Shown one piece after another: positions 1-2,990 of a stretch of DNA of 7,176 bases. The stretch is from Methylocystaceae bacterium (lineage in GTDB: Bacteria > Pseudomonadota > Alphaproteobacteria > Rhizobiales > Beijerinckiaceae), in assembly GCA_003152255.1 (NCBI GenBank), contig PLZT01000438.1, positions 1 to 7,176 of the forward strand, in the 5' to 3' direction. The first letter of the stretch is position 1. Every line of letters begins with the position of its first letter. The position numbers and the translations under genes are program-made. The notes under the pieces were generated by a model that did no database searches, was not told the origin of the DNA, and saw only the letters and a list, made by a program, of their open reading frames with translations.

Positions 1-768
<768 letters not shown>

Positions 769-781
769 GGATCGGCCAATT

Positions 782-807
782 CCCTCTCCCCGCTTGCGGG
801 GAGAGGG
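782..807. repeat. Palindromic hairpin repeat, copy 1
   Basis: This is a perfect inverted repeat: the 12-base arm CCCTCTCCCCGC at 782-793 pairs with GCGGGGAGAGGG at 796-807, leaving only TT between them (in practice a slightly larger loop). It starts 13 bases after the dnaK stop codon and is followed by TGAGGGGCGGG. That extended form resembles a widespread intergenic palindrome in Hyphomicrobiales genomes; this is from memory and was not searched. No T-run follows, so a classical intrinsic terminator is unlikely, but so strong a stem could stabilise the dnaK mRNA 3' end or attenuate read-through. A degenerate relative lies at 1115-1140. Confidence 0.85.
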
Positions 808-835: not shown

Positions 836-858
836 TTTCAAAAATGAAATATTTTTCA
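836..858. promoter_or_regulatory. AT-rich dyad cluster, possible operator or promoter
   Basis: An AT-rich spot in a GC-rich region contains TTTCA (836-840), four bases, TGAAA (845-849), four bases, TTTCA (854-858). This gives two overlapping inverted repeats with 4-base centres. It covers the ATG at 844 and ends just before the ATG at 862. Such spacing could suit a small dimeric repressor or a promoter melting region, but no convincing -35/-10 pair stands out (TTGCCC at 824-829 with AAATAT at 847-852 is weak). If functional, it favours 862 as the start of the small ORF. This is inference only. Confidence 0.25.
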
Positions 859-1086
859 ATGATTAACGAACCAACGACGAGGCCTACAACGATCGACGAA
901 GCGTTCCAAGCGGGGCTCGATGATCACGACTTCGGGCGCGGGCCGGCTGCGGCGCCTGGTCCGGAGACCGCGACAGACGACGATTTGGCGCTGTACGAGG
1001 CGCGTCGGGAAGCTTATGGTTCGCGCTCCGACCTTGACGAGGAAGGCGAGGTTGTTGACAACGATCAGCAGAGGCGCCGATCGTAG
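844..1086 (+). CDS. Small acidic hypothetical protein (80 aa, or 74 aa from the second ATG)
   Basis: I do not recognise a family. The ORF encodes 80 residues from the ATG at 844, or 74 from the in-frame ATG at 862. Codons from 862 onward have the GC-rich third positions usual here, while the first six (ATG AAA TAT TTT TCA ATG) are AT-rich and could be non-coding, so 862 may be the true start. Neither start has a recognisable Shine-Dalgarno sequence. The protein is acidic, with about 19 Asp/Glu against about 9 Arg/Lys. It has a Thr/Pro-rich start, an Ala/Pro/Gly-rich middle (near residues 34-43), a helix-like DDDLALYEARREAYGS segment and an Asp/Glu-rich C-terminus ending in Arg residues. There is no signal peptide or membrane segment. 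It lies between two hairpin repeats and upstream of mntA-hepT. It could be a real accessory gene, a decayed remnant or a chance ORF. Confidence 0.45.
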   Translation: MKYFSMINEPTTRPTTIDEAFQAGLDDHDFGRGPAAAPGPETATDDDLALYEARREAYGSRSDLDEEGEVVDNDQQRRRS

Positions 1087-1114: not shown

Positions 1115-1140
1115 CCCTCTCCGTGTAAATGAGGAGAGGG
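1115..1140. repeat. Palindromic hairpin repeat, copy 2 (degenerate loop)
   Basis: An inverted repeat has 8-base arms, CCCTCTCC at 1115-1122 and GGAGAGGG at 1133-1140, around the loop GTGTAAATGA. The outer arm sequence is identical to that of the 782-807 repeat, but the centre differs. On the opposite strand it reads CCCTCTCC..GGAGAGGGCGAGG, which matches the flank of copy 1 (GAGAGGGTGAGG), so the two copies are probably in opposite orientation. It lies between the small ORF and mntA. There is no T-run. Confidence 0.7.
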
Positions 1141-1178: not shown

Positions 1179-1469
1179 ATGAAGCCATCCCTTGCCCTCG
1201 ACGCCAATCGCGAAGGCGTGCGGGCGGCGGTGAGCCGCTGCCGCGCGGCCAATCCGCGTGTGTTCGGCTCCGCGCTGCGCGGCGATGACCGAGAAGGCAG
1301 CGACATCGATATTCTGGTGGACGCGCTTCCGGGGGCGACGCTCTTCGATCTCGGCGGCTTGCAGGTGGAACTCGAAGAAATCCTGGGCGTGCGCGTCGAT
1401 CTCCTGACGCCAGGAGACCTGTCTCGCCATCTTCGCGAGCGCGTGTTGGCGGAGGCCGGCCCTGTATGA
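1179..1469 (+). CDS. mntA: MntA-type minimal nucleotidyltransferase, antitoxin of a type VII (HEPN/MNT) toxin-antitoxin system
   Basis: This 96-residue protein is a minimal nucleotidyltransferase of the pol-beta superfamily. The diagnostic GSX10DXD motif is exact: G30-S31, then ten residues, then D42-I43-D44 within GSDIDILVD. The third catalytic acid is probably D74 in VRVDLLT. In characterised systems MntA uses ATP to transfer AMP units to a tyrosine of the cognate HepT, inactivating the toxin RNase. The length fits the short MNT proteins paired with DUF86/HEPN partners. The ATG at 1179 is supported by GGAGAG at 1167-1172, six bases upstream. The stop overlaps the next gene's start (ATGA at 1466-1469), the usual arrangement for such a pair. 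Membership of the family is firm from the motif and the partner; activity is inferred. Confidence 0.92.
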   Translation: MKPSLALDANREGVRAAVSRCRAANPRVFGSALRGDDREGSDIDILVDALPGATLFDLGGLQVELEEILGVRVDLLTPGDLSRHLRERVLAEAGPV

Positions 1470-1861
1470 ATGCCAAGAGTCCTCTCGCGCCCGTCGAACA
1501 TATGCTCGATTGCGCCAAGCTGGCGATTTCTTACGTAGAGGGCTTGGAAAAAGGCGATTTCCCGAGGGATACGCGCACTCAGCAGGCCGTTATCATGAAT
1601 CTCCTAACTGTCGGCGAGATGGCTTCGCGGCTCGCGCAGGAGCATCCTGACTTCACAAAGAATCATCCCGAGACGCCCTGGCGGGGCATGACGGCGATGC
1701 GTAACCGTATAGCGCATGGATATTTTGAGCTGGATTTGGATATTGTGTGGGACACGGTGCTGACAGCGCTGCCCGAACTGGTATACCGCCTGCAACCGAT
1801 CCGCGACGAGATCGCCGCGCCCGGCGGCCCGCGCGAAAGTTCACCGAGCGACGAAATCTGA
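1466..1861 (+). CDS. hepT: HepT-type HEPN (DUF86) ribonuclease toxin
   Basis: This 131-residue protein is predicted to be all-helical. It carries the HEPN signature RX4HXY as R79-N80-R81-I82-A83-H84-G85-Y86, preceded by PWRGMTAM as in the DUF86/HepT family. R79 and H84 would form the RNase site in a HEPN dimer, and Y86 corresponds to the tyrosine AMPylated by MntA in studied type VII systems. The central [14 protein letters not shown] helix also matches the family. The ATG at 1466 overlaps the mntA stop by four bases, and GGAGG lies at 1451-1455. The gene looks richer in A+T than dnaK and dnaJ (for example around 1720-1750), consistent with acquisition by transfer. The last ~20 residues (after RDEIAAPGG) are Pro/Ser/Asp-rich and extend past the usual HEPN core, possibly sequence recruited from the original dnaJ leader. 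The stop is one base before dnaJ. The RNA target cannot be judged from sequence. Confidence 0.92.
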
Positions 1862-1862
1862 C

Positions 1863-2990
1863 ATGGCCAAGCGCGACTATTACGAAATTCTCGGAGTCTC
1901 CCGGACCGCGACCGAGGTCGAGATGAAGATCGCCTTCCGCAAGTCGGCGATGGAATGCCATCCCGACCGAAATCCCGGCGACAAGGCGGCCGAGGCGCAG
2001 TTCAAGGAGCTGAACGAGGCTTATCAGGCGCTGTCGGACCCGCAAAAGCGCGCCGCCTACGACCGTTTGGGCCATGCCGCCTTCGAGCAGGGCGGCGGCG
2101 CGGGCGGCTTTGGCGGCGAAGGCTTCGGCGCCTCGATGGCCGATATTTTCGAGGATCTCTTCGGCGACGTCATGGGGCGGCGCGGCGGGCGCTCTGGCGG
2201 CAATGGCCGCGAGCGCGGCTCCGATCTGCGCTACAATATGGAGATTACGCTCGAAGAGGCCTACACCGGCAAGGCGGCGACGCTGAAGCTGCCGACCTCG
2301 GCCACCTGCGAGGCCTGCGCCGGAAGCGGCGCCAAGAAGGGCTCCAGGCCAAAGGTGTGCGCCACCTGCGCCGGCCAGGGACGCGTGCGCGCGCAGCAGG
2401 GATTTTTCGCGATCGAGCGAACGTGCCCAACCTGCCAGGGGCGCGGCGAGATCATCGAAAATCCCTGTCCTTCATGCGCCGGCTCCGGCCGCAAAACGCT
2501 GGAGCGCACGCTCTCCGTCAATGTGCCGGCGGGGGTCGAGGACGGCACCCGAATCCGCCTCGCGGGCGAGGGCGAGGCCGGCTTGCGGGGCGGCCCGCCC
2601 GGCGACTTATATATTTTCCTGTCGGTCAAGCCGCACGCCTTCTTCCAGCGCGACGGCGCCGATCTTTACTGCCGCGTGCCGATCTCGATGGTGCGCGCGG
2701 CCATCGGCGGCGAGATAACCGTCCACGCCATCGATAGCTCGGAATGCAAGCTGAAAGTGCCGGAGGGCACGCAATCGGGCCGTCAGTTGAAGGTGAAGGG
2801 CAAGGGAATGCCGGTGCTGCGCGGGCGCGACCAGGGCGATTTGCATGTCCAGATCAGCGTCGAGACGCCGCAAAATCTCACCAAGCGCCAACGCGAACTG
2901 CTCCATGAATTCGAGCAGGAGTCCTCGCACCACACCCATCCCGAATCGACCGGCTTTTTCGCGCGGATGAAAGAGCTGTTCGGAAAGTAG
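1863..2990 (+). CDS. dnaJ: Chaperone protein DnaJ (Hsp40, type I)
   Basis: DnaJ delivers unfolded substrates to DnaK and stimulates its ATPase. All domains of a class A J-protein are present in 375 residues, the usual length. The J domain (about 1-70) contains HPD at 33-35, and a Gly/Phe-rich linker follows at about 77-120. The zinc domain has four intact CXXCXGXG repeats (cysteines 149/152, 166/169, 188/191 and 202/205). The C-terminal substrate-binding domains include [13 protein letters not shown] and [19 protein letters not shown]. The ATG at 1863 follows the hepT stop by one base, and I see no strong Shine-Dalgarno sequence in the preceding bases, which are hepT codons. Translation is therefore probably coupled to hepT. 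Transcription could come from dnaK read-through across the insert or from a promoter within it. Confidence 0.98.

Follow-up and report, generated by a model that had tools for sequence, protein, structure and literature searches.

A probable type VII-like toxin–antitoxin lineage resident in an exchangeable dnaK–dnaJ slot of Methylocystis-like bacteria

How does a toxin–antitoxin (TA) pair come to lie between dnaK and dnaJ, and what keeps it there? The question is raised by the window analysed here, a 7,176-nucleotide stretch of DNA from a Methylocystis-like bacterium whose DnaJ, compared with 80 loci, comes closest among named organisms to that of M. silviterrae (84%). The dnaK–dnaJ interval of the window contains three ORFs on one strand: orf80, a minimal nucleotidyltransferase (MNT) and a HEPN protein. 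The features are as follows.

1..768, + strand: 3' part of dnaK, the left border of the slot (PF00012, E 2e-83; NCBIfam dnaK models)
782..807, no strand: perfect 12-bp inverted repeat CCCTCTCCCCGC/GCGGGGAGAGGG, directly 3' of dnaK and without a T-run (sequence reading)
844..1086, + strand: orf80, a small, nearly orphan ORF (ORF call; few homologues)
1115..1140, no strand: second inverted repeat CCCTCTCC...GGAGAGGG, between orf80 and mntA (sequence reading)
1179..1469, + strand: mntA-like gene for the putative antitoxin, a minimal nucleotidyltransferase of 96 aa (PF01909; PADLOC PDC-S09; folds)
1266..1310, + strand: predicted GSX10DXD catalytic motif, MNT residues 30–44 (alignment)
1466..1861, + strand: hepT-like putative toxin gene, HEPN RNase, 131 aa (PF01934; folds)
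1700..1723, + strand: RX4HXY motif, HEPN residues 79–86, RNRIAHGY (alignment)
1863..2990, + strand: dnaJ, the right border of the slot (NF008035, E 3e-167; TIGR02349, E 8e-128)

The mntA-like and hepT-like frames overlap by 4 nt (ATGA), and a single nucleotide separates the end of the hepT stop at 1861 from the dnaJ ATG at 1863. The MNT matches PF01909 (NTP_transf_2, E 4e-11) and the PADLOC candidate PDC-S09 (E 7e-28); the HEPN protein matches PF01934 (HepT-like, E 8e-24). Alignment of 23 MNT sequences, including the window, finds the G, S, D and D of GSX10DXD invariant, with a further Asp at residue 74 of the window MNT. The R, H and Y of RX4HXY (R79, H84 and Y86 in the window) are invariant across 34 sequences, again including the window, and Y86 is the presumed AMPylation site. 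Both motifs are defined for type VII systems in the accessible portion of PMC7641770. Predicted folds have a mean pLDDT of 87.7 (MNT) and 93.7 (HEPN). Foldseek matches the MNT to 1wot, 7bxo and 8xeo (best E 2e-8), and the top PDB matches of the HEPN fold are two entries of Shewanella HepT, 5yep (E 0.004) and 6m6u (E 0.008), at a TM of ~0.6, with 7ae6 as a further match; no HEPN fold match in the PDB reaches E ≤0.001, and the HEPN sequence has no PDB match at E 1e-3. The marks of type VII are all present: adjacent MNT and HEPN genes with the MNT first, both motifs, and HEPN and pol-β MNT folds. The NCBIfam equivalog models of MntA and HepT (NF047752 and NF047751) give 34.8 and 36.9 bits, under the 60-bit cut-off of each, and we therefore file the pair only in the broader MNT/HEPN type. 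The family E-values and predicted folds, together with the purifying selection described below, place the pair beyond chance. A preliminary description of this DNA had read an intact GSX10DXD nucleotidyltransferase overlapping an RX4HXY HEPN protein between dnaK and dnaJ, and had called the module MntA/HepT; coordinates, motifs and Pfam matches bear out the first statement, and Pfam pair, motifs and folds the second. On these sequence criteria an intact MntA/HepT-type module between dnaK and dnaJ is confirmed.

Comparison with known systems places the pair more closely. Shewanella oneidensis HepT/MntA (SO_3166/SO_3165, type VII) has the same PF01934 and PF01909 families in the same MNT-then-HEPN order, with GSX10DXD, RX4HXY and fold in common, at ~20% identity in the fold match. 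The window MNT, at 96 aa, is shorter than Shewanella MntA and cannot reach its helix α4 (98–113), which is required for full activity according to the available text of PMC7641770. Unlike the Shewanella pair, that of the window lies in dnaK–dnaJ, has its stop at the dnaJ start and falls under the equivalog cut-offs. The closest solved MNT is 1wot, a putative minimal nucleotidyltransferase (46% identity over 96 columns, TM 0.89). A solved HEPN/MNT pair (7ae2, 7ae6, 7ae8 and 7ae9), which we take to come from Aphanizomenon, agrees with the window in fold and in the pairing given in the PDB titles, although its fold similarity to the window HEPN is lower than that of 5yep. In toxin–antitoxin–chaperone (TAC) systems, TA genes are linked to a gene for a SecB-like chaperone, and this chaperone controls how stable the antitoxin is. 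The window locus, too, links TA genes to a chaperone gene, a likeness of gene linkage; it differs in that the chaperones are the housekeeping DnaK and DnaJ and the TA pair is type VII-like.

We surveyed 139 dnaJ loci: the window, 38 from the 39 genomes of the genus group (that of M. silviterrae; 38 yielded a dnaJ locus) and 100 from wider-family genomes picked by DnaJ similarity out of 397 searched; the sample leans to close relatives. MNT and HEPN genes occupy the slot in 25 of the 139, across several genera, with the HEPN frame broken in three. Twelve of these loci come from the 38 of the genus group, G168 and G166 among them with an interrupted HEPN frame, and 12 from the 100 of the wider family, among them G242 with the same defect. 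Two wider-family loci retain part of the module, namely an intact 96-aa MNT frame with no recognisable HEPN in G027 (L275) and an MNT stub with its stop 1 nt before dnaJ in G256. Short intervals of 85–300 bp are found in many relatives, including 21 of the 38 genus-group genomes (<300 bp) and M. silviterrae itself (122 bp), as the preliminary description had anticipated. Other genus-group occupants are a Phd/VapB antitoxin with a PIN toxin in two genomes (G154 and G181; L160 and L162), a P-loop kinase in one (G163) and a GT90-like gene in one (G161), while in G151 dnaJ has been relocated and the MNT–HEPN pair still stands beside dnaK (L180, L178). Modules also stack: VapBC with MNT–HEPN in G172 (L181, 2808–3796) and kinase with MNT–HEPN in G207, the kinase occurring alone or 5' of MNT–HEPN at L176 (G163), L185 (G207) and L191 (G231). 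None of 80 DnaJ loci matched orf80, MNT or HEPN by tblastn (1e-4), and none matched five HMMs searched on the dnaJ strand (E 1e-2). A more even draw of 149 family genomes gave a HEPN match in 49, and 7 of the 29 HEPN loci fetched from it adjoin dnaK and dnaJ; in an order search of 397 genomes, neither gene flanked any of 25 newly fetched HEPN loci, among the matches listed. A gene between dnaK and dnaJ was also seen in Aurantimonas and Jiella (L012, L017 and L059), presumably of an acyltransferase-like family.

The slot modules tested group together. A tree built from 108 HEPN proteins (a quick tree from few columns, with three of the 25 slot HEPNs omitted as broken or short) unites all 22 tested slot HEPNs in a starred clade (SH-aLRT 98), which has 43 rows. 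Its remaining rows are 20 database proteins of unknown context, P0006 among them, plus G151; 19 of the 20 family HEPNs sampled from other places do not belong to it. A tree of concatenated MNT and HEPN sequences likewise sets 23 slot-linked rows apart from four non-slot family modules (support 99/96). Across nine pairs, dN/dS is 0.08–0.25 for MNT and 0.10–0.26 for HEPN, ratios by which both genes are under purifying selection. This suggests that the slot modules form a locus-specific lineage, an old and swappable resident rather than a recent stray insertion. The comparison of intervals across relatives, proposed in the preliminary description as a check on insertion, gave a mixed answer: short intervals exist and only some relatives have the module, but the modules belong to one lineage and not to a one-off event.

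Elsewhere the same slot is taken by VapBC, a kinase or other genes, or is empty, and occupants differ even between genomes whose flanks are 97–98% identical. G154 (VapBC) and G155 (MNT–HEPN) encode identical DnaJ proteins; their DNA shows 98.3% identity through the second nucleotide beyond the dnaK stop, is unrelated from there on, and can be aligned once more starting 11 nt before dnaJ. By DnaJ, the nearest relative of the window is G163 (99%), whose slot is not empty but holds the P-loop kinase (AAA_33); its flanks are 97–98% identical to those of the window, and the DNA between is unrelated except for the last 10 nt before dnaJ. Three further pairs (G183/G001, G219/G044 and G174/G177) lose alignment at the dnaK stop or ≤2 nt from it and regain it at the dnaJ start or 1 nt before. 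The stretch from dnaK stop to dnaJ start behaves as an exchangeable cassette, filled by MNT–HEPN, VapBC, a kinase or nothing. In this a core heat-shock operon acts as a cassette slot for different toxin–antitoxin systems.

Trees of module and chaperone conflict. Mapped on a 58-row DnaJ tree (remnants scored as carriers, G151 as a non-carrier, non-genus rows mostly chosen for having cargo), the module label needs 16 changes, nine of them forced by starred branches. DnaJ groups the window with G163, G151, G161 and G091 (SH-aLRT 91 only), whereas the window module is nearest G219, G207 and G151 in the MNT+HEPN tree, and an AU test rejects the window, G151 and G091 as one module clade (p 6e-51). 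A database HEPN of unknown context from Methylocystis sp. (P0006) is a mosaic relative to the window, with identity at 54 of 96 positions in its left part and at 34 of 35 in its right part, a contrast that none of 2,000 shuffles matched. From the tree conflict and this mosaic we infer exchange in place, with homologous recombination across the conserved dnaK and dnaJ flanks as the probable route; old tandem copies, differently lost, could also cause the DnaJ conflict. No rise in flank divergence was found beside the slot, and imported tracts were therefore not seen. P0006 and P0010 both pair a window-like C-terminal end with a different N-terminal part. The idea that essential neighbours lock the module in place, raised in the preliminary description, is contradicted by this turnover of occupants and is set aside. 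Integration hotspots between core genes similarly show changing cargo at one site and rapid gene turnover, in the available sections of PMC5635113; the dnaK–dnaJ slot differs in being a single intergenic gap within an operon and in having a single TA lineage for its main occupant.

The junction with dnaJ is a recurrent feature of the lineage. The hepT stop lies 1–3 nt ahead of the dnaJ start in 19 of the 25 slot modules, 11–18 nt away in four and far away in two (G207 and G195). By a somewhat different measure, the next ORF (at least 100 aa) starts within −4 to +3 nt in 3 of 31 non-slot modules. VapBC pairs in the slot lack this junction: their ends do not coincide with the dnaJ start. With the hepT stop directly against dnaJ, the geometry suits termination–reinitiation, and HepT and DnaJ are probably translated together from one mRNA; geometric coupling of the TA lineage to dnaJ is our best reading of these coordinates. 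In G195 (L189) an ORF of 353 aa, flagellin-like as judged by reading the sequence, stands between hepT and dnaJ. In five other genomes (G115, G018, G003, G090 and G058; L192, L224, L236, L210 and L269) the gene for a secreted-looking protein, alike among them by eye, runs 1 nt into the dnaJ start.

Expression signals were also scanned. No sigma-70-like promoter was found at 600–2000 of the window, and a stricter terminator scan of the first 120 nt 3' of dnaK found none there; a looser scan gave one candidate at 812–829. Terminator-like hairpins in the 120 nt that follow the dnaK stop are no commoner where the interval is longer or holds cargo or remnants (16 of 54 loci) than where it is short (17 of 78; p 0.32), and we therefore make no claim of a terminator separating dnaK from the cargo. 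The median dnaJ Shine–Dalgarno value is −2.1 with the module (n = 23) versus −3.1 at short intervals (n = 79; p 0.07), but −1.5 (n = 13) versus 0.2 (n = 21; p 0.014) in the genus group only; as the two sets point in opposite directions, we rejected this strength as a gauge of dnaJ dependence on hepT. High dnaK and dnaJ expression is given for Methylosinus sporium 5 in the accessible text of PMC12403871.

Both motifs are widely retained, GSX10DXD in 26 of 27 slot loci with an MNT or remnant and RX4HXY in 20 of 22 slot HEPNs with a usable frame. The exceptions among HEPNs are G176 (catalytic H to N) and G334 (acceptor Y to H). In G168, two small deletions in the middle of the HEPN jointly keep the frame, whose end is still 1 nt before dnaJ, and in G166 and G242 the HEPN matches are split over two frames. 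Judged by these changes, the toxin is often lost, as expected for a module of intermittent benefit. A database protein (P0004, context unknown) resembles an in-frame HEPN deletion.

We therefore consider it probable that the window carries a working type VII-like TA pair, of a lineage that resides in the dnaK–dnaJ slot of Methylocystis-like bacteria and of some relatives in the wider family. In this reading MntA would use ATP to AMPylate HepT at Tyr86 and thereby switch off its RNase, activities that we infer from the motifs, the fold and the Shewanella precedent. The cassette between dnaK stop and dnaJ start would change occupants by recombination in the flanking genes, and translation of HepT and DnaJ from one mRNA would tie the toxin pair to the co-chaperone. 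Quite possibly, the same anatomy instead belongs to a module for addiction or phage defence that is a mere hitch-hiker on its conserved flanks and unconnected with the heat-shock response; the two readings differ only in the purpose of the position, and our confidences in them overlap. Hitch-hiking would accord with the turnover and decay seen in G168, G166, G242, G176, G334, G027 and G256, with the other TA cargo of the slot and with the PADLOC candidate PDC-S09 matched by the MNT, but the persistent position and the stop–start junction, which slot VapBC pairs lack, exceed what it requires.

Three further readings fare less well. That hepT persists chiefly as a leader cistron setting dnaJ translation, with toxin activity secondary, seems unlikely: the frame-keeping deletions of G168, the apparent in-frame deletion of P0004 and the secreted-looking gene that overlaps dnaJ in five other genomes all lean its way, but the retention of both motifs points to selection on catalysis, and short-interval genomes have dnaJ without hepT. 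Repeated, independent insertions of unrelated MNT–HEPN modules into a hot site would make sense of a slot that accepts unrelated cargo (VapBC, kinase, glycosyltransferase) and of the stacks in G172 and G207, yet we hold them very unlikely, as the tested slot modules group in a single clade to which most of the family's other modules do not belong, and 19 of 25 have the stop–start junction with dnaJ in common. That a mobile TA module inserted once, and recently, in this strain, the private event suggested by the preliminary description, had in its favour the short intervals of many relatives and the lack of the pair in G163, but is highly improbable and largely refuted by the survey and the HEPN clade, since 24 other surveyed loci across genera have MNT and HEPN in the same slot, all 21 of them whose HEPN is usable belong to one lineage, dN/dS speaks for long purifying selection and the G163 slot holds a different occupant rather than an empty site.

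For the resident type VII-like lineage that we favour, a heat-shock role is a hypothesis in line with the available part of PMC3710099. This 2013 survey of the HEPN superfamily proposes there that MNT–HEPN pairs arrest translation, buying time for chaperones, and describes sacsin as joining a DnaJ domain and a HEPN domain in one protein. Rather doubtfully, the slot lineage may have been recruited as a translation-arrest arm of the heat-shock response: MntA and HepT would be made with DnaJ from one transcript, proteotoxic stress would unmask HepT through MntA misfolding, ATP loss or occupancy of DnaK/DnaJ, and the unmasked HepT would cut RNA until chaperones catch up. If true, nature would here supply an instance of what was proposed in 2013. 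An MNT–HEPN lineage between dnaK and dnaJ, its toxin gene directly against dnaJ, opens that idea to a test by simple genetics, and close relatives with and without the pair are natural controls. No TA pair in dnaK–dnaJ is reported, by title or abstract start, in the open-licence literature searched, so that the location may indeed be undescribed, as the preliminary description supposed; the Methylocystis SC2 genome paper names hicAB, mazEF, yoeB-yefM and relBE systems in its available text (PMC3794950).

Neither orf80 nor the junction between hepT stop and dnaJ start figured in that description. orf80 has no Pfam, NCBIfam or PADLOC match, and its homologues are two proteins in a database of 5.8 billion. 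Within the genus group it occurs in one of 39 genomes (G091), in the same place, and the two copies differ by a dN of 0.30 and a dS of 1.66 (dN/dS ~0.18). The ORF is flanked by two CCCTCTCC/GGAGAGGG inverted repeats (782–807 and 1115–1140), by impression extragenic palindromes.
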